Shown: piece by piece, positions 1-9,563 of the stretch
How positions within the stretch are numbered: position 1 is the stretch's first letter
Layout: each line of letters begins with the position of its first letter
From: Erythrobacter sp. EC-HK427
GTDB lineage: Bacteria; Pseudomonadota; Alphaproteobacteria; Sphingomonadales; Sphingomonadaceae
DNA: 64,000 bases
NCBI RefSeq assembly: GCF_902498745.1
Contig: NZ_LR701479.1
Location: 190,292 to 254,291, forward strand
Reading direction: 5' to 3'
Notes under the pieces: model-generated
Told to the model about the DNA's origin: nothing
Seen by the model: only the letters and a program-made list of their open reading frames with translations
Databases searched by the model: none
Translations under genes and position numbers: made by a program

Positions 1-507
1 GGCGGTGCGGAGGAAGAGCGACATATCGCTGAGGTCGAGGATACCGCGCCCAAAACGCACAGCACGCCGATCCTGCTCGGCATGGTCGTCGCCGGACTTG
101 CCGCCGCGATTTTCGGCGCAGGGCTGCTGGTTGATGGCGCGGTGATCCTTGCGCGCAGTGCGGGGATGTCCGAATCGGTAATCGGGCTCACCATCGTAGC
201 GGTCGGCACGTCGCTGCCTGAACTGATCGCCTGCCTCGTCGCGGTCAATCGCGGCCATTCGGAAGTGGCGCTGGGCAATATTGTGGGATCAAATATCTAT
301 AACGTGCTCGGTATTCTTGGCCTTACCGCGATTATCCATCCGCTCGCGATCCCTGCTGAAATCGCACAGGTCGATATCTGGGTGATGGCCGGAACCACCG
401 CGTTGTTGCTTGTGATGCTGCGCACCGGGTGGAAGATCACTCGCATGGAAGGCGGTGTGCTAGTGGCGCTCTATGTCGCCTATACCGCTTTCCTGTTGAT
501 GCGGTAA
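1..507 (+). CDS. Calcium/sodium antiporter, C-terminal part (5' end outside window)
   Basis: The reading frame is open from base 1, so the gene begins upstream and only about 168 C-terminal residues are visible. An acidic linker leads into several hydrophobic helices. The second half of the CaCA-type antiporter repeat is recognisable: GLTIVAVGTSLPEL, followed by GNIVGSNIYNVLGILG. In this family such alpha-repeat motifs line the ion path and contribute the acidic residue that binds calcium. The protein should be an inner-membrane K+-independent Na+/Ca2+ exchanger of the YrbG type. Substrate specificity is inferred from the family. The next gene is on the opposite strand, so transcription units converge at about 510-586. 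Confidence 0.85.
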   Translation, partial: GGAEEERHIAEVEDTAPKTHSTPILLGMVVAGLAAAIFGAGLLVDGAVILARSAGMSESVIGLTIVAVGTSLPELIACLVAVNRGHSEVALGNIVGSNIYNVLGILGLTAIIHPLAIPAEIAQVDIWVMAGTTALLLVMLRTGWKITRMEGGVLVALYVAYTAFLLMR

Positions 508-586
508 CCGCCAAGCGGATACGAAAACGCTGCGGAAAGCCAGTGGTCTCCGCCGCGCCTCGGGACAATCGTTTTGACTAGCGCGT

Positions 587-1240
587 CTAGCGGGGCTTGA
601 GCAGCCCGCGCTTGCCGGTCGACCAGAAGGCAGCGATCAGCAGGAAGGAAGCGAACATCGTCATCCAGTCGAGCATGGCGGGGCCAGGCACATATTCCAG
701 ATGCGCTGCCGTTGCCCAGCCGCCGCCGATCGTCATGACGAGATAGAAGGCAGTAGCGGCGGTCTCGCGGCTCACCTGTTGCATCATTTCGTCCATCAGC
801 TTGAGCTGGCGGTTGCCCGCCCACCAGCTACCGATCAAAGCGGCCACCAGCACAGCAAGGGCAACGCCAGCGGGAACAGGGCCGAGCGGCTGCGCAAAAG
901 CGAGCAACATCAGCGCTGCGCCCAAGGGCACCATGCTGATGGTGCTGTAGAAGAGGATCTTGCGCTGCTCCATCAGCTCCTCCGGGTCTTCGACATTGAG
1001 AAACTTCGCGCCCACCTTGGGGCTGATGACGCCCACGCCTGCCATCAATCCCACAATGACGTAAAGCAATCCGATTGTCGCGGCGATTTCGCGCGACAGC
1101 CCGATGGAGCCCAATGCACCGCTTTCGATAACGCCCCCCAGGATGCGGGTTGTGACCAAGCCAATCGCTGCGCCAACACCTACTGAAATCACCAGCTTGC
1201 GGGTCTTGCTGCCCGACTTTTGTTCGTTAGCCATATCCAT
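587..1240 (-). CDS. Six-helix membrane protein, module 1 (paralogue of 1477-2154)
   Basis: The protein has 217 residues and about six predicted membrane helices. A conserved cytoplasmic-looking stretch KLMDEMMQQVSRET precedes the last two helices. I choose the ATG at 1240 because it overlaps the TAA stop of the upstream helix-turn-helix frame as TAATG, which suggests translational coupling. The partner membrane protein at 1477-2154 has the same layout and the matching segment PFMDELMRAASLES, so the two are paralogues, but their sequences are strongly diverged. Small Xre-type regulators paired with multi-helix membrane proteins are known in other bacteria (for example Bacillus YozG/YoaS). The function here is unknown, and a stress or envelope-sensing role would be a guess. 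Confidence 0.7.
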   Translation of the reverse strand: MDMANEQKSGSKTRKLVISVGVGAAIGLVTTRILGGVIESGALGSIGLSREIAATIGLLYVIVGLMAGVGVISPKVGAKFLNVEDPEELMEQRKILFYSTISMVPLGAALMLLAFAQPLGPVPAGVALAVLVAALIGSWWAGNRQLKLMDEMMQQVSRETAATAFYLVMTIGGGWATAAHLEYVPGPAMLDWMTMFASFLLIAAFWSTGKRGLLKPR

Positions 1241-1480
1241 TACTCCGAACCTTCCTGTGCTTGGGGTTCCCAATCATCGATAAACAAGTCCGGCACGCTC
1301 ACGCCGAACAGCTTCGCCATGCGCAATGCCAGCGGCAGCGAGGGATCGTATTTGTCGGTTTCCACCGCATTGATCGTCTGCCGCGACACGCCGAGCCTGC
1401 GGGCCAGTTCGCCCTGGCTCCACGCGTGCTTCTCGCGGTGTTCCTTACCCTGCGGTGAGACCGGTTGGCGCGCGGCTCAT
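1240..1480 (-). pseudogene. Helix-turn-helix regulator copy 1, frame-shifted or programmed +1 frameshift
   Basis: The frame from 1446 down to 1240 encodes KEHREKHAWSQGELA and the rest of an Xre-type domain. It is identical in protein sequence to the intact copy at 2151-2357 over about 60 residues. The only start at the expected place is the ATG at 1480, which overlaps the upstream membrane-protein stop as ATGA. That frame reads MSRAPTGLTAG and then hits TAA at 1447-1445. The regulator continues in the +1 frame (GGT AAG GAA). The regulator frame itself has no ATG, GTG or TTG between the upstream TGA and the helix-turn-helix. It is either a pseudogene with one extra base, a sequence error, or a programmed shift at GGG-TAA. 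All seven base differences from copy 2 are silent, which argues for recent or present function. Confidence 0.6.
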
Positions 1481-2154
1481 TCATCGAGCATCCCCCGCTT
1501 GTTCGCCGCAACAGTCGATCCCACAAGCGAGAACCCCCAGAACAGGCTAAGCCAATCCAGCGCATAGGGCGCGCGGACGAGACCGAGATATCCCACCGCT
1601 GCCCAGCTGCCGCCGATTGCCAGCATGAAGCCATAAGTCCAGACCGCCGATTCAAGGCTCGCCGCGCGCATAAGTTCGTCCATAAATGGCAGGCTCTTCA
1701 TCCAGAACGTCAGACCCGCGATCATCAGCAGGAAGAAGATTGCCCCGCCGGCCACCGGATTCAGCCAGACGTTCGGGCCTGATAGCGTCAGGACGATCAG
1801 GGCCAGCCCCAGAAATACGACTGCCGCAGTTTGCATGAGATAAAGCGAACGGGAATCCACAAGGTCCTGTGCATTCGGGCCCGTAAGGAGGCCCTGTCCC
1901 ACTTTGGGTGCGGCAAGTGCTGCCAGCAAGACCAGTCCAACGAGCAGGTAGAAGCCCCCAATACTAAGCGCCACAACGCCCGACAGGCCGAGTGCGTCCA
2001 GCATGGAGGTGTCGATATCCCATCCACTCCTGGTGGCTGCAAATTTCCCGACACCATAGCCGACCAAACCGGCGAAAAAGCCAATAATTACCGCACCCGT
2101 AAGGCCTTTGGGTCGCCATTTGCCGCGCGGTTGCGCATTGCCATCGGTCATCAT
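1477..2154 (-). CDS. Six-helix membrane protein, module 2
   Basis: The protein has about 225 residues with six predicted membrane helices and a short charged N-terminus. The start at 2154 (ATG ATG ACC) overlaps the TGA stop of the helix-turn-helix gene at 2151-2357, the same coupled arrangement as in module 1. The ending ANKRGMLDE resembles STGKRGLLKPR in the paralogue at 587-1240, and both carry the MDE(L/M)M motif before helix five. The stop TGA overlaps an ATG that should start helix-turn-helix copy 1. The order on the minus strand is therefore regulator 2, membrane protein 2, regulator 1, membrane protein 1, which is a tandem duplication. The function is not recognised. Confidence 0.7.
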   Translation of the reverse strand: MMTDGNAQPRGKWRPKGLTGAVIIGFFAGLVGYGVGKFAATRSGWDIDTSMLDALGLSGVVALSIGGFYLLVGLVLLAALAAPKVGQGLLTGPNAQDLVDSRSLYLMQTAAVVFLGLALIVLTLSGPNVWLNPVAGGAIFFLLMIAGLTFWMKSLPFMDELMRAASLESAVWTYGFMLAIGGSWAAVGYLGLVRAPYALDWLSLFWGFSLVGSTVAANKRGMLDE

Positions 2155-2357
2155 TCTACAGGTTCCCAATCATCGATAAACAAGTCCGGCACGCTCACGC
2201 CGAACAGCTTCGCCATGCGCAATGCCAGCGGCAGCGACGGATCGTATTTGTCGGTCTCCACCGCATTGATCGTCTGCCGCGACACGCCGAGCCGCCGGGC
2301 AAGCTCGCCCTGGCTCCACGCGTGTTTCTCGCGGTGTTCCTTCAACCGGTTCTGCAC
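2151..2357 (-). CDS. Xre-family helix-turn-helix regulator, intact copy 2
   Basis: This is a 68-residue protein that consists almost only of a Cro/C1-type helix-turn-helix: WSQGELARRLGVSRQTINAVE, read here as recognition helix SRQTINAVE, then the DKYDPSLPLALRMAKLF helices. The start is GTG at 2357, preceded by AAAGGTGA at good spacing. It is the first gene of the minus-strand module, with its stop overlapping the next membrane protein. Three 17-bp palindromic repeats lie immediately upstream (2374-2424), so it probably represses its own operon. That is an inference from position. A single-domain regulator of this size normally binds as a dimer. Its coding sequence is about 96% identical to copy 1. 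Confidence 0.85.
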   Translation of the reverse strand: MQNRLKEHREKHAWSQGELARRLGVSRQTINAVETDKYDPSLPLALRMAKLFGVSVPDLFIDDWEPVE

Positions 2358-2373
2358 CGAATCACCTTTCTGC

Positions 2374-2424
2374 CTGACAAGAGCTCTTTACTGTAAAGAG
2401 GTCTTGTCAGTCAAGAGCTCTTGT
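2374..2424 (-). promoter_or_regulatory. Three 17-bp palindromic operator-like repeats
   Basis: Three units begin at 2374, 2391 and 2408. Each is centred on AAGAGSTCTT (2379-2388, 2396-2405, 2413-2422), exactly 17 bp apart. The first and third cores are the perfect palindrome AAGAGCTCTT. The outer part forms a longer inverted repeat from 2375 to 2409 with one mismatch. The array lies between the GTG of the regulator at 2357 and the ATG of the lysozyme at 2495. It also covers a minus-strand TTGACT that could be a -35 box. The regulator at 2151-2357 is the likely ligand. Confidence 0.65.
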
Positions 2425-2494
2425 CACCCTTTCCTACACGCGAACTGTCGCCCTAGCCCTTGCTGTCTCTCCCACACGACGCGAGGAAACTGTT

Positions 2495-3118
2495 ATGACC
2501 TATGCCGCCATGCTCGAATTTTTCCGCAAGCTGCGCCGCCACGCCTCCCCCCGGCCCGCCCTTCAGGGGGCTGCCCGAATGCACGCCGATTTTTCCCCTC
2601 AGGACAGTGTAACAGGTGTAACAGGTTCGCCGCCAAACCCCTCAAAGATCGGGGAAAAGGGCATCGCGCTGATCCAACACTTCGAAGGCTGTGCGAAAAA
2701 GCGGGCGGATGGCATGATCGAGGCCTATCCCGATCCCGGCACCGGCGGTGATCCGTGGACCATCGGCTGGGGCGCGACGGGCAAGGACGGGTTCCATGGC
2801 GGGCGTATCGCCAAGGGGACGGTGTGGACGCAGGCGCAATGCGATGCGCGGCTGGCGGCGGATCTGGCGCGCTATGCGGCGGAAGTAGCCCGCGCGCTGG
2901 GCGATGCGCCGCGCTCGCAGAACCAGTTCGATGCGCTGGTCAGCTTCCATTACAACACCGGCGCCATCGGCAAGGCGACGCTGACGCGCAAGCATATCGC
3001 AGGCGACCATGCGGGCGCGGCGCGCGAGTTTGACCGCTGGGTCTATGCCGGAGGGCGCGTGCTCAAAGGCCTCGTCCGGCGGCGCGCGGCGGAAGCAGCG
3101 CTGTATCGGGAGGGCTAG
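2495..3118 (+). CDS. Phage-type lysozyme (glycoside hydrolase family 24)
   Basis: This 207-residue protein carries a GH24 muramidase domain from about residue 52. Its catalytic Glu is in QHFEGC, and the Asp/Thr part of the active site is in PDPGTGGDPWTIGWG, with the family motif NQFDALVSFHYNTG further on. It should cleave the peptidoglycan glycan backbone. The first 50 residues are basic and Pro/Ala-rich, with no hydrophobic signal or signal-anchor, so export would need a holin or lysis; no holin is seen nearby. The start at 2495 has GAGGAA eight bases upstream. It is transcribed away from the regulator module across the shared operator array. It could be a domesticated phage or gene-transfer-agent endolysin, which is an inference. 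The 3' end overlaps the tamB stop by four bases (convergent). Confidence 0.88.
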   Translation: MTYAAMLEFFRKLRRHASPRPALQGAARMHADFSPQDSVTGVTGSPPNPSKIGEKGIALIQHFEGCAKKRADGMIEAYPDPGTGGDPWTIGWGATGKDGFHGGRIAKGTVWTQAQCDARLAADLARYAAEVARALGDAPRSQNQFDALVSFHYNTGAIGKATLTRKHIAGDHAGAAREFDRWVYAGGRVLKGLVRRRAAEAALYREG

Positions 3119-6100
3119 TAGTCCCGCCGGTATTCCAGTGCCGCGCTATGCCGTCCGATTGTGCTCACCGTGGCAAGCAGGTTCAGCCAGTTGGAAATGC
3201 GGAACTCGGCATTGGTGGCGGAATAGCCCGCGCCATCGGTGATGATCTCGACATAGAAGCGGTTGGCGAAATTCCGTCCCAACGCAATCGCTGTGCCGCG
3301 CCCCAGCGCGGTATCGGCAGGCACCAGCCGCAACCGGTCGAGCCCGATTGCCGAGCGCAACTGGTTGATCGGATCGAGCCCTGCGCCGCCGCGCAGGCTC
3401 GCCACCGCCGCACCCAGTTGCAGCGCATCGGTGGCGGAGAGGTTGGAGATCGATCCGCCGAACAACAGCCGCGCCAGCAATTCCTCCTGCGGCAGCGAAG
3501 GGTTGGAGGTGAAGCTGATCTGCGGCTGGCTGGCGCGCCCGACAATGTCGACCGACACCGCGAGCCCGTCCACGCGGGTTTCGGCCACCAGGTCAATCTG
3601 CGGATCAAGCGCCTCGGCTGCGCTGAAGCGGATGATACCTTGGGTGATCGCAAACTGCCGTCCGGCAAAGGAGTAGAACCCCTGCCGCGGCACCACCACC
3701 ACCGTGCCACCCAGCCGCGGATCGGCGGTGGTGCCGCGGATCTCCAGATTATCGGTGCGCCACTGGCTGTCGAGCCCCAGCCCGTCGACCTCGATGCCGC
3801 CGGGCGCGCCGACATCGATCAGATACCGCCAGCGGCCCGTGGTTGTGGCAATGGGGGCGATATCGCCGGGGACGTTGCGCTCGCGCGTCAGCACTTGCGG
3901 CAGTTCGGCAATCGCCTCGGCCGCCGTGCCCAGCCGCCACCGCGCGCTATCGGCGGTGAGGCGACCTGCGATCGTGCCGCCCCGCCCGTCGGAAATAATG
4001 CGCATCGGCCCGGTAATCACCGCGCCCATATTGGGCAGATCGAGCAGTTCTGCCCTGCGTGCGGCGATGCGCAAATCCATGCTCGGCCCGCGCGTGCGGC
4101 TGATGTTCGACAGGTCGATATAGCCGCTGCCGCTCACCGTGCCACCATTGGGCGCGGTGCCGCTGAAGCGGGTGAGGTTGAAGCGCGAACCGGTGAAGCG
4201 ACCGGCGGCGGAGACATCGCTCAGATCGGTGCCGATCAGCCCGCTGCGCACCCGCAAGCCGCCGCCTGCGAGCGAGCCCACCACGCGCGGGTTCTCCAGC
4301 GTGCCGCGAATATCGGCGGCTACCGCGACATCGCCGGTCACATCGAGCAGGCTGATCGCCGCCAGCCGCCACAGCGCGGCAGACGAGCCGTTGTAGCGCA
4401 GCTGTGCGAACAGATTGCCGCGATAGAGCCGCTCGGTCAGCGTGCCGTTGGCGGGCAGCCCGGCAATGCGCGCCTGCAAGCGCCCGTCGAGCCCGTTGCC
4501 GTCATCCATCACCGCGCGCGCCTGGAACAGCGTTTCGGAGAGGTCGGCGACCAGCGCAATGTCCATCGGTTCGGAAGTCAGCAGCGCGCTCGAACGGGTC
4601 AGCCCCTCGATCATGAGCCGCGCTTCGCCGGTCGGCAGGCTGCCGCGCCCGGCGGTGATCTCGGCCACGCCCGACACGGTGCCACCCACGCCCAGCTCGC
4701 CGGTCAGCACATCGGAAAGGCCCAGCGGCATATCAACGAGCGAGAGGCGGCCCTGCATCGGCAAATCGCCGCCGAACCGTCCGCTGGCAAGCACGAAGCC
4801 GTTGCCGAAGGAAAGCTGGCTGCGCTGCAATTCCCAGCCGCCATCTTCGAGCGGCAAGAACACCGCGCGGCGCGGCATGGAGATACGGCGGTTATCGTAG
4901 GAACCATCCACCGCCACCGCGATCCGCTCGGTACTGGCATCGCCAGTGACGCGCAATTCGAAGCGGCTACCGCGCCGCCCCGTCAACGCGGCGTTGAAGC
5001 GGCCGACATTGTCCGTCACCTGCGCGCGGGCGGCAAGGCGACCGATGAAGATCTGGCCATAGCTGAGGCCGGTGAGATTGGCGTTGCCATTGAGGCTCAC
5101 AGCGCCATCGGCGAAAACCCCCGCCGCATCAATCGTCCCGCTATGGATAAGCAGCGGCGTCGCCCCTTCGAAGCGGGCCGAGCGCGCGGCCAGATCGATG
5201 TCGAAGCCCTGCCCGCCATCGCGCACCGCCAGCGCAATCGTCCCGTCAAGTCCGCCGCGCCCGACATTAAGATTGCCCTCGACCCCGCCTTCGACCAGCG
5301 TCAGCACGCCCGCCAGCTGCGTTTCGGACACGGTCAGGCGCGTGATGTCGAAAGTCGTCGTCCCGTCGCGGGCGATATTGAGCAGCAGTTCACCGTCAAA
5401 CGCGCCGAGCAGCGATCCGCCTTCGGTCTCTATCCGGAACCCGTCATCGGTGGGCGCGAGCGCGACGCGCACATTGCTGAGGCGCGCGGCAGGCAGCGGG
5501 TCGGCGAACACCAGCACCGCGCGCGGGCCGTCATCCGCCAGCTCCGCCTCCACCGTAAACGGGCCGTATTCGACATGGCGTCCGCTGCCCGCCAGCGTTG
5601 TGGTTCCGCCATCGATATCGCCCGAGAGGATGGCATTGGCCTTGGTCGACACCACGCTGAAGCGGTCAAAGGCGATGGGCGTGCCCTCGCCCAGCCGCAC
5701 GCCGCCTCCGAAGCGGATATTGCCGCCCGACAAATTGGCGAGCGTCGCATTGGTCACCCGCGACACCACGCCGCTGACATCGGCTTGCAGCTGCCACGGA
5801 TTGCCGCCGCCGATCACGAAGCGGATTTGCGCGCCGCCGTCGATTTCACCGATCCCGTCGAACAGCAAGTCCTGCATATCCACCGGCCCCGTCACCCGCG
5901 TGACGCCGGTGTTGAAATCACTGGAGAGGCCAAGCTGCGCGCTCAGCCGCTGGAACTGCACATCGAGATTGTCGGAAGTGAGCGTGCCACCTGCCAGCGC
6001 CACATTGCCGCGCACGCGCCCGTCCACCAGCCGCGGATCGGCGAGTTCGATGCCGCTCACCACGCGCCCGATGGCGGCATCGAGGCTGGAGGTGAAGCGC

Positions 6101-7347
6101 GTGCCGTCATAGGCGAGCGTGCCGCGCTGGAGCACATTGGTGACAATCGTGCCTGCCAGATCGATTTCGGCCACGCGCAATTCATGCGGCATAGTGAAAT
6201 CGCCGAAATCCCCCGCCAGCGTGCCCGTAATACTCGCGCCATTGAGGGCAATCGTCTCGCTGAACAGCTGCGGGTCGAGCAGTTGCGCGGCGATCACCAG
6301 ATCCTCGAAGCGGTTATCGGCCAGGTCAATCGCGCCTGCCCCGTCGGCATTGAGCCCACGCCCGCGCAGCACGAAACCGCCTGTCGCCACGCTACTCTCC
6401 AGCGCGCCCGTTGCGGTCAGCATCACCGTTTCGCCCAGCGCCCTCGCTGTCAGCCCTTCGACATAGGCGAGCGGGTTGATGCGGGCGACCAGCCGGTATT
6501 CGCCGCTTTCGTTGAACAATTGCCCTTCGATCAGCTCCTGCCCGCCCTGGAGCGCCCGAATGTCGCCTTCCCAGCGCGTCCAGCTGCCATCGCCTTCAAC
6601 TTGCAGCGCAAGATCCTGCTCGGCCCCGACCAGCCCCGCCAACACTCCCCCCGCCGGAGCTTGATAGTCGACCGCGATATCGAACACATCGCCATCGGGC
6701 TGCACGTCGATCAGCGCGGTGAACACATCCGCGCCGCCCAGTTCACCGCCCGCATCGAGGAATACCCGCCCGTCGCGGATATCGGCTTCCGCCGCGAAGC
6801 TGACCAGCCGTTCCTCGCCGATCAGCCCTTCCGCAACGGTCAGATTGTCGATCGCAAAGCGGTCTATCCGGATGTCGAAATCGGGCAGGATCGGCGCGTC
6901 GGGATCGCCTTCATCGAGCACGGGAGCCGCGTAAAGCGTCCCGTCGTTGAGGACGAGGTGGCGGATATCCAGCCCGCTAAACAGCCACTTATGCGGCCGC
7001 CAGTTGAGATCGACGGTGGGCACTTCCAGAAACAGCGTGTCATTGGCATCGCGGAATTCGACATCGTACAGCGTCGCGCTCCACAGGATCGAGCCTTCGA
7101 TTTCGCCAACATCGATCTGCAATCCCGAGGCGGGCGCAACCTTGCCAATCTGGTCGACGATAAACTGGCGGCCCGGCGGCGTGTGCAGAAAGGCTATGAA
7201 CAGTAGCAACAGCAGCAGCAGGCTGAGCAGCGCGTAGACCAGCCAGCGCACCGCACGAAAGGCCCAGAAGTCGCGCAGCGTCGATGACGCGGGCGCAGCG
7301 TCTGCGGGCGCTTCGGCTTCCGGGGTGCCTGTTTCCTCTCCCGTCAT
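3115..7347 (-). CDS. tamB: Translocation and assembly module inner-membrane protein TamB
   Basis: This protein has about 1410 residues. A single N-terminal membrane helix (AVRWLVYALLSLLLLLLLF) lies near residues 35-60, followed by a very long beta-rich, AsmA-like periplasmic body, and it ends in the conserved DUF490/TamB C-terminal domain (segments LGGTVVVVPRQGFYSFAG and DPQIDLVAET, with LLARLLFGG). TamB spans the periplasm and works with the barrel protein TamA in outer-membrane protein or lipid transport. The start at 7347 overlaps the tamA stop as TGATGA, so an upstream in-frame ATG at 7386 is less likely. The gene directly follows tamA, the usual order. Confidence 0.93.
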   Translation of the reverse strand: MTGEETGTPEAEAPADAAPASSTLRDFWAFRAVRWLVYALLSLLLLLLLFIAFLHTPPGRQFIVDQIGKVAPASGLQIDVGEIEGSILWSATLYDVEFRDANDTLFLEVPTVDLNWRPHKWLFSGLDIRHLVLNDGTLYAAPVLDEGDPDAPILPDFDIRIDRFAIDNLTVAEGLIGEERLVSFAAEADIRDGRVFLDAGGELGGADVFTALIDVQPDGDVFDIAVDYQAPAGGVLAGLVGAEQDLALQVEGDGSWTRWEGDIRALQGGQELIEGQLFNESGEYRLVARINPLAYVEGLTARALGETVMLTATGALESSVATGGFVLRGRGLNADGAGAIDLADNRFEDLVIAAQLLDPQLFSETIALNGASITGTLAGDFGDFTMPHELRVAEIDLAGTIVTNVLQRGTLAYDGTRFTSSLDAAIGRVVSGIELADPRLVDGRVRGNVALAGGTLTSDNLDVQFQRLSAQLGLSSDFNTGVTRVTGPVDMQDLLFDGIGEIDGGAQIRFVIGGGNPWQLQADVSGVVSRVTNATLANLSGGNIRFGGGVRLGEGTPIAFDRFSVVSTKANAILSGDIDGGTTTLAGSGRHVEYGPFTVEAELADDGPRAVLVFADPLPAARLSNVRVALAPTDDGFRIETEGGSLLGAFDGELLLNIARDGTTTFDITRLTVSETQLAGVLTLVEGGVEGNLNVGRGGLDGTIALAVRDGGQGFDIDLAARSARFEGATPLLIHSGTIDAAGVFADGAVSLNGNANLTGLSYGQIFIGRLAARAQVTDNVGRFNAALTGRRGSRFELRVTGDASTERIAVAVDGSYDNRRISMPRRAVFLPLEDGGWELQRSQLSFGNGFVLASGRFGGDLPMQGRLSLVDMPLGLSDVLTGELGVGGTVSGVAEITAGRGSLPTGEARLMIEGLTRSSALLTSEPMDIALVADLSETLFQARAVMDDGNGLDGRLQARIAGLPANGTLTERLYRGNLFAQLRYNGSSAALWRLAAISLLDVTGDVAVAADIRGTLENPRVVGSLAGGGLRVRSGLIGTDLSDVSAAGRFTGSRFNLTRFSGTAPNGGTVSGSGYIDLSNISRTRGPSMDLRIAARRAELLDLPNMGAVITGPMRIISDGRGGTIAGRLTADSARWRLGTAAEAIAELPQVLTRERNVPGDIAPIATTTGRWRYLIDVGAPGGIEVDGLGLDSQWRTDNLEIRGTTADPRLGGTVVVVPRQGFYSFAGRQFAITQGIIRFSAAEALDPQIDLVAETRVDGLAVSVDIVGRASQPQISFTSNPSLPQEELLARLLFGGSISNLSATDALQLGAAVASLRGGAGLDPINQLRSAIGLDRLRLVPADTALGRGTAIALGRNFANRFYVEIITDGAGYSATNAEFRISNWLNLLATVSTIGRHSAALEYRRDY

Positions 7348-9563
7348 CAGAACGCCTGACCCAGCCCGATATAGACCGCGATCCATTCATCGTTCGGCCC
7401 CCGGTTAAGCGGCACCGCGACATCAAGGCGCAGCGGGCCGAACTCGGTTTCGTAGCGCACGCCCACGCCCGCGCCCCATTGGATATTGCCGAAATCGGGC
7501 AGCTCGTCCTCGCCGACGGAGCCTGCATCGAAGAACGGCACCACGCTCAGCGCGCCGTCGAAGAACGGCGTGCCGATGCGCGCTTCGGCGGAAATCTCAA
7601 CCAGGCTGCGCCCGCCCGCCGGATCGCCCTCGTCGGTGCGCGGGCCGATCTGGCGGTAGCCGTAGCCGCGCACCGATCCGCCGCCGCCGGCATAGAGCCG
7701 CCGCGAGGGGGCAATGCCATCCAGCGCACTGCCCGGCGTGCTGGCCAGACGCAGCCGCCCGGCCAGTACCGTATCGTCGCCCACTTGCTGATAATAGGAA
7801 AAGTCGGCCTGGCTGCGCAGATAGAAGCTCTGCACCCCGTCATTGTCAGAGGCTTCGGGCGAAAGCCGCAAGGATGCGCGCCAGCCTTCTGTGGGATCGA
7901 GCAGATCGTCCGATTCGTCGATCTGCCCGAACAGCGGCAGCGCGGCGATGAAATAGTCCTCGCTCGGCAATTCGACCCGGTTCACGTCAAATTCGCTTTC
8001 GCGCGTCGCCACCAATTCGATGCCGACCGACCAGCTATACTCCTTCTGGAACAGGAGGTTGCTCACCCGCTCGAAACTGCCCGTCAGCGAAAGCGTTTGC
8101 GCATCATAGGCTTCGTAATCGATAGTGCTGGCAAAGGCATCCACCGTCAGAATGCGGTCACGCCCGGTGAAATTGCTGCGGCGGAAGGTAACGCCCGCCA
8201 ATTGTTCCTGCGTGCCGAGAACACCGCGCACGCGCAGCAAGCCTTCGGGCGGGAAGAGGTTGCGGTGTTCCCACATCCCTTCGATCCGGATGCCTTCCTC
8301 GGTGCCAACGCCGATGCTGCCCGCCAGCGTGCGCAATGGTGCGGGCGTAAGCGAAGCGGCGATGTTGACGACGCCGGGTTGATCGCCGTCAGGCTCTGCC
8401 ACCACCACCGGCTGAAGATCGACCGCGCCAACAATGCCGGTGGCGAGTATCGCGCGGCGCAGATCGACCACGTCACTGCGTTGGTAGGGATCGTCGCGAT
8501 GCCAGCGGGCGATGCGCGTCAGATGCTCGCCGGAGAGGAAATCCTCGTTCTCGCTCACCACCTCGCCCATGACGAAGACACCGCCGGGCTTCACCTGCAT
8601 GGTGAGATCGCCCTCGATACGGGCATGGTCGATCTCCAGTTCGGGATCGCGCACGACGGCGAAGGGGAAACCGCCTTCGGCCAGTCCGTCTTCTAGGGCA
8701 GTGCGCCCGTCGGTCACCGCGTCGAGCGAGATGAAATTGCCCGGATAGACGCCGAAGGCTTCGCGCAAATCGTCATAGGCCGCGCCTGCCAGCACCAGAC
8801 TGCCCAGATCGACCGCGCCAAAGCGATAACGCGGGCCGGGGATTATATCGAAGCGCGCGGTGGGTGTTTCGTCAGCGCCTTCGTCTTCAGCGCCAGCACC
8901 GCCAATGCTGCGGATCACTTGCGCGTCGTAATAGCCGTAAACCCGCAAAAGCTCGTTCAGCAAGACCTCGTCATCACGCGCCTGCGCGGCGAGGCGGGCA
9001 AGATTGCCGTCATCGTCCAGCAGTGCGATGCTGGACAGCGCCTCGAACCGGGCGAGGAAGGCATAGCGTTCGGGGAACAGCGCCCGCTCGCTGGGGAACA
9101 CCAGCACCAGCTCGTCCGAAATCCGTTCCTCGCTGCCGGGCGGCAGTGGCGGGATTTCGTCATCGAAGGTGGCGAATTCGATGGGCTCCTCATCCGGCGC
9201 AAGCGGCGCGAGCTGCGGACGCTCCATCGCATCGGGCCAGGGGATGGTGATCTCGGGCAAATCGGCGAGTGGAGAGGAGGCATCAATCGGCGGCAGAGAC
9301 AGCAGTTCGTCGAGGCCCACCTGAAGTTGGGCATCGGGCACGCCCTGCGCCGCCCACGCCTCCGGATCGGCCACCGCTGCATCGGGGATCAGGTCTTCAA
9401 GCGAGCGATCTTGCACCCTGCCTTGCGCATCCTGCGCCAGTGCAGGCTGCGCGGCGAGGCTGCACGCGCCCAGCGCCGCCAGCACGGCAACGCGGCCAAG
9501 CGCGCGCTCAGGCGAGCTTGTATTCGGCTTGCAAGCCCGGCGTATTGTCTTTTGATCCGCCAT
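7347..9563 (-). CDS. tamA: Outer-membrane assembly factor TamA (BamA/Omp85 family)
   Basis: This protein has about 738 residues. A signal peptide ends at ALAQ around residue 43, followed by a Pro/acid-rich region, POTRA-like domains (for example [13 protein letters not shown] and [12 protein letters not shown]) and a C-terminal Omp85 barrel. The barrel has the loop motif [12 protein letters not shown] and a terminal strand ending in Phe (YIGLGQAF), as expected for BAM recognition. The ATG at 9563 overlaps the end of bpt by 56 bases. It is the first ATG that gives a full signal peptide, with AAGGA about 12 bases upstream. It is translationally coupled to tamB. The acidic, proline-rich segment before the POTRA domains is longer than usual. 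Confidence 0.92.

Follow-up and report, generated by a model that had tools for sequence, protein, structure and literature searches.

Two nearly identical helix-turn-helix blocks, each followed by a membrane-protein open reading frame (ORF), lie on the minus strand near one end of the 64,000-nucleotide stretch of Erythrobacter sp. EC-HK427 DNA analyzed here (the window), raising the question of whether the locus contains two regulatory modules or one. The source genome (G000) comprises 3.1 Mb in three contigs. The original prediction read the locus as regulator, membrane protein, regulator, membrane protein, with two different membrane outputs tied to one operator specificity. On balance, we favor a single autoregulated operon, HTH1-M2-M1, placed under one operator, in which HTH2 would be a young duplicate of the regulator that recently lost its start codon. 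The features on which this reading is built are listed in Table 1.

Table 1. Features of the regulator-membrane locus (positions in the window)
Feature	Position	Strand	Basis
M1: membrane protein of 217 aa with six helices; this orthologue is widespread across the family	587..1240	-	
HTH2: regulator copy 2, open from codon K6 to its TAA but lacking a start codon in that frame	1240..1446	-	
13 nt at the HTH2 5' edge, no counterpart in copy 1, right after the shared AACCGGT (1460-1466)	1447..1459	-	
M2: 225-aa membrane protein, diverged upstream clade; ATG overlaps HTH1 stop	1477..2154	-	
ATG overlapping M2 stop, frame different from HTH2	1481..1483	-	
HTH1: intact regulator of 68 aa, XRE/Cro-CI type, starting with GTG	2151..2357	-	ORF; HTH_3 E 3.5e-16; PDB relatives
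Candidate triple palindromic operator (2375-2392, 2392-2409, 2409-2426), pattern TGTMAAGAGNTCTTKACA, ≤2 mismatches	2375..2426	-	
Endolysin-like gene, divergent; also adjacent in many relatives	2495..3118	+	ORF

HTH1 scored 59.4 bits against HTH_3, for which the gathering cut-off is 23, placing it among the XRE/Cro-CI regulators. Its nearest relatives in the PDB were 9k3w, of the PbsX family, and CylR2 (1utx, E 1.9e-12). Neither a LytTR domain nor an ArsR family was found among the 25 of 36 Pfam families listed for the regulator, the best match being HTH_3. Within the genus, the regulator had a pN/pS of 0.16 (171 pairs), and 46 of 60 residues were invariant in 19 orthologues. The corresponding value for the membrane gene was 0.55 (153 pairs), a rough figure since its pS of 0.61 is near saturation. 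The strong purifying selection predicted for the regulator was thus recovered, as a property of the whole family that is not specific to the two copies.

HTH2 is in frame with M2, so that the M2 stop codon (TGA, 1479-1477) falls in the HTH2 frame, which continues GCC GCG CGC CAA CCG GTC TCA CCG CAG GGT AAG... and reaches its first possible start codon (of ATG, GTG, or TTG) only at 1389, an internal GTG. The ORF from this GTG is 49 aa long. With no in-frame start before 1389, and with the ATG at 1483 in another frame, copy 2 is not a complete, translatable XRE/Cro-CI gene, contrary to the proposal that both regulators are genes. Nor did we find in the window a palindrome of the HTH1 type preceding copy 2. 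Lacking both a start codon and an operator of its own, copy 2 does not support two complete modules. Of the predicted gene order, the membrane ORF after each block stands, but the second regulator is not an open gene. The lesion is known from one assembly only, because the searched set contained one genome per species. An error in that assembly at 1447-1459 could mask an intact second gene, but a 13-nt non-homopolymer difference is in our judgment atypical of read errors, making this explanation extremely improbable.

The conservation of copy 2 bears on its history. Alignment of 1265-1446 with 2161-2342 reproduced the ungapped 182-nt match originally reported, at 96% identity, with seven differences, all silent. 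The computed silent share of random changes was 23 to 26%, in agreement with the earlier estimate that about three-quarters would alter the protein, and under a neutral null the probability of seven silent changes out of seven was ~4e-5 to 8e-5. The pattern fits the usual constraint of the regulator family acting on both copies (P 0.048). It fits poorly with drift of copy 2 since the duplication (P ~0.0005, with a likelihood ratio of 93 disfavoring a neutral copy 2). Copy 2 had probably been an intact gene and lost its start in the recent past, a reading that draws on the silent pattern and on the 7-nt AACCGGT match between the 5' sides of the copies. The probability of this match was 0.015 to 0.02 when 15 nt of copy 1 were considered and 0.07 when 40 nt were considered.

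The same figures bear on whether copy 2 was dead on arrival, that is, a regulator fragment inserted into the M2-M1 spacer that never had a start. At its left edge, CTCACCGC-AGG resembles the M2-M1 spacer of the related genome G512 (P 0.012, the best of three spacers; the others, from G459 and G285, gave 0.25 and 0.28, respectively). This match and that of AACCGGT are about equally good. A neutral fragment would, however, be expected to have accumulated amino acid changes, against which stand the P value of ~0.0005 and the likelihood ratio given above, and we consider this origin quite unlikely. Alternatively, copy 2 might still be translated by recoding, either through a frame shift from the ATG at 1483 or through readthrough of the M2 TGA, which would make it a C-terminal extension that tethers the regulator to M2. 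If so, a membrane-tethered DNA-binding domain would share the operator specificity of the free regulator. The absence of amino acid changes despite the missing start and the frame shared with M2 agree with recoding, but a shared frame is expected by chance one time in three, and none of the other genomes among the 76 with a regulator has two; we regard recoding as highly improbable.

We examined how the regulator is distributed among relatives. At E 1e-26 or better, it was detected in 76 of the 396 genomes of the order sample, all in the window's own family, and at E 1e-24 or better in 20 of the 40 genus genomes. A single copy was present in 75 of the 76 genomes, and two copies were found in G000 only. 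Single modules in related genomes, which the original prediction had named as evidence against itself, are therefore the prevailing state. More distant regulators (≤55% identity in G000), present in G000 and many relatives, were excluded from these copy counts.

A profile of the membrane family matched 77 of the 396 genomes, five of which (G000, G285, G068, G459, and G512) carry two membrane genes at the locus; in all but G000 the two genes stand behind one regulator. The order in G285 is HTH-M2-M1, with a gap of 26 nt. In G459 and G512 the order is regulator-membrane-membrane, and the first membrane stop is separated from the next gene by a few dozen nucleotides that contain no regulator. A membrane gene of the M1/M2 family that is apparently broken into two pieces was seen at G491:C37:90563-91212.

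The upstream membrane gene, M2, falls into one diverged clade in four of the five two-gene genomes. In a first tree, the M2 proteins of G000 and G285 grouped with the protein of Qipengyuania sp. XHP0207 (L101; SH-aLRT 95), and the membrane pair of G068 arose by a separate duplication (SH-aLRT 98). In a second tree, the same two M2 proteins and the single L101 gene were joined in one clade by the upstream genes of G459 and G512 (SH-aLRT 96). The L101 locus comprises a regulator and an M2-type gene, with no M1-type gene directly behind them. The first tree left out L002, L095, L096, L102, and loci without a membrane ORF of 190 to 300 aa, L001 and L021 being represented by the G000 and G285 proteins; the second also left out L192 and seven Sphingomonas rows (long branches), and its G459 and G512 rows were limited to the C-terminal 220 residues of the frames. 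L095 (Aurantiacibacter marinus) and L181 (genus member G303) have the regulator, gap, and upstream sequence of the window, which makes Aurantiacibacter the probable genus.

The two regulator copies differ at a pS of 0.17 and a pN of 0, as opposed to a pS of ~0.5 between HTH1 and the G285 regulator. Because of this difference and the support of 96 for the M2 clade, the M2/M1 split is estimated to be old and the HTH1/HTH2 duplication young, so that copy 2 is probably a young, lineage-specific duplicate of HTH1. Duplication would have preceded loss of the start. The codon that is commoner among 74 relatives was found in HTH2 at five of the seven differing sites and in HTH1 at one, the remaining site not being polarizable; two of the five majorities are narrow (CGC 27 versus CGG 25; GAA 39 versus GAG 35).

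All seven differences lie within the first 105 of the 182 nt (P 0.02), which leaves room for partial gene conversion. The locus could then stem from an old event in which regulator and membrane gene were duplicated in tandem as one unit, after which conversion homogenized the regulator blocks and the inner regulator was lost elsewhere. The junction of HTH1 with M2 (C terminus WEPVE, ATGA overlap) resembles that in G285, where the equivalent sequence is WEPAE, and the N terminus of M1 (MDMA) is that of L189, as this history would predict. It would, however, require that several lineages (G285, G459/G512, and also G068 if its pair is counted) each lost the inner regulator, and two regulators occur in none of the other 75 regulator genomes. 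We consider such a history unlikely, and retain the late duplication of HTH1.

Three palindromes, spaced 17 bp apart upstream of HTH1, form the genome's only cluster at ≤2 mismatches. Three other genome matches had 3 mismatches each, and a backward control gave as many. Upstream of the regulator, 74 of 75 related loci contained at least one palindrome (≤3 mismatches, within 300 nt), with three in 50 loci, two in 20, one in 3, four in 1, and none in 1, and the spacing was 17 in 95 of 123 neighboring pairs. L002 and the repeat records L095, L096, and L102 were left out of these counts. The operator is thus conserved and would be the binding site of HTH1. A sigma-70 scan of 1400-2520 gave no match; a looser TTGAC-TAAAG pattern was present in 60 of the 75 loci.

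Other elements were observed around the operator. Three lineages have insertion elements with similar ends located within the operator palindromes of the regulator: L120 (near 975-3930), G160 (L224, near 1734-3950), and G033 (L020/L223). The L120 insertion is flanked by an 8-bp target duplication, AGAGCTCT; the two ends in G160 lie at different operator sites; and in G033 the right end was found and the left was not. L120 and L020 encode similar transposases, which we take to be IS1595-like. Between the operator and the endolysin-like gene, CTTTCCTACA (2429-2438) has 34 copies in the genome, as opposed to 2 for a backward control; in the loci listed, repeat records included, the sequence upstream of the regulator contains it or a close variant. 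TGTAACAGGTGTAACAGG (2608-2625) has 22 genome copies at ≤1 mismatch (control, 0), and it or a near copy follows CTTTCCTACA within 260 nt in 9 of 20 loci examined from the 34 sites. Of 79 loci, repeat records included, 39 have an endolysin-like gene close to the module; 36 of these genes are upstream and divergent, across the operator. The regulator may thus have the endolysin-like gene as a further target.

The membrane partners proved to be more alike than the scattered motifs of the original description: a search with either M1 or M2 recovers the other across most of its length (34% identity; E 9.7e-25 and 2.3e-23), and their identity in the genus-set alignment is 30%. The predicted structure of M1 has six long helices (pLDDT 93.2). 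Hydropathy profiles gave six segments in 49 of 75 proteins and four, five, seven, or eight in the others. The M1 model had no PDB match at E 0.001 or better; its best VIA-align hit (1brx, Z 9.6, rmsd 4.2, 138 residues aligned) is in the range typical of common helical bundles. Pfam assigned neither protein to a family at its cut-off, and other members had scattered weak matches.

Alignment A1 of the membrane proteins comprised 53 of the 62 locus proteins plus the two window proteins (nine near-duplicates and long or odd rows were omitted by choice). In the membrane protein, mean information was highest in loop 2, which contains NVED (3.12), and at the C-terminal end (2.91); loop 4, with DE (2.62), was level with helices 2 and 6 (2.60). 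Loops 1, 3, and 5 contain no K or R. The NVED loop and the C-terminal end share the side whose loops carry K/R residues, which is probably cytosolic; loops 2 and 4 and both ends would then be cytosolic and may meet the regulator. Since acidic residues outnumber basic ones in loops 2 and 4 and loop 4 is conserved like helices 2 and 6, this docking face is proposed tentatively. M2 lacks the NVED motif and keeps DELMR, so that M1 and M2 may differ in signal or in grip.

Other kinds of element were considered for the locus and rejected. The M1 query had no match in 72,556 plasmid records; PADLOC, used for defence systems, matched HTH1 only to HTH-type regulators and gave nothing for M1 or M2; and the three Rfam matches in window positions 1-8000 were all far below gathering scores.

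Because copy 2 has no start codon, the working unit is likely to consist of a single regulator and a single control region together with the two membrane proteins. The single operator cluster, the single regulators in 75 of 76 genomes, and the relatives with two membrane genes argue for one control region for HTH1-M2-M1 and for a young copy 2. Of the predicted two membrane outputs tied to one operator, the one operator cluster and two membrane genes remain, served by one intact regulator and not by two modules. Repression of HTH1-M2-M1 is probably brought about by HTH1 bound to the three palindromes that precede its start codon. M1 and M2, in turn, probably influence the regulator from their place in the membrane, for instance by holding it there upon sensing a signal, the mode described for SdpI/SdpR and proposed for CylR1/CylR2; DNA binding, repression, and contact between regulator and membrane proteins are inferred. 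The second regulator block would have arisen between M2 and M1 in this lineage only and was probably translated for much of its life.

The module, in which a small regulator is joined to a conserved cluster of operator sites and a membrane partner with six helices, occurs in 76 of 396 order genomes. In the tandem case its two genes evolve apart, the regulator being nearly frozen and the membrane partners growing in number and divergence. The locus is therefore a natural test of whether several membrane sensors can share one repressor. Literature searches on XRE-plus-membrane modules showed nothing on this regulator-membrane family among the matches listed; they included a paper on a transmembrane transcription factor of Caulobacter (PMC13384398). 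A search with the operator sequences listed one paper, on Vibrio.

Among known systems, the LytTR regulatory systems HdrRM and BrsRM are presented in PMC6193735 as two-gene autoregulated operons of a regulator and a membrane inhibitor. Their regulator is a LytTR activator and their sites are direct repeats upstream of -35, whereas HTH1 is of the XRE type and is preceded by palindromes. SdpR of Bacillus subtilis is an ArsR-type autorepressor, unlike HTH1, whose best match is HTH_3. According to PMC1626106, SdpR and the membrane protein SdpI are encoded in one operon, and SdpR is sequestered at the membrane. A one-operon autorepressor and membrane protein are also proposed here; a difference is that SdpI confers immunity to a killing factor. 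The closest analogue would be CylR2/CylR1 of Enterococcus faecalis, in which the 66-aa repressor CylR2 is related in sequence to HTH1, although the gene order differs from that found here. Both loci combine a repressor (putative here), a suspected membrane partner, and a divergent neighbor. CylR1 has three predicted transmembrane helices, as opposed to six in the model of the membrane protein here; the CylR2/CylR1 target is a toxin operon, and the three palindromes are a further difference. According to PMC3709268, CylR2 has a suspected membrane partner and the regulator genes are divergent from the target operon. By analogy with what has been proposed for CylR1 and CylR2, the membrane protein here may relay a signal to the repressor.
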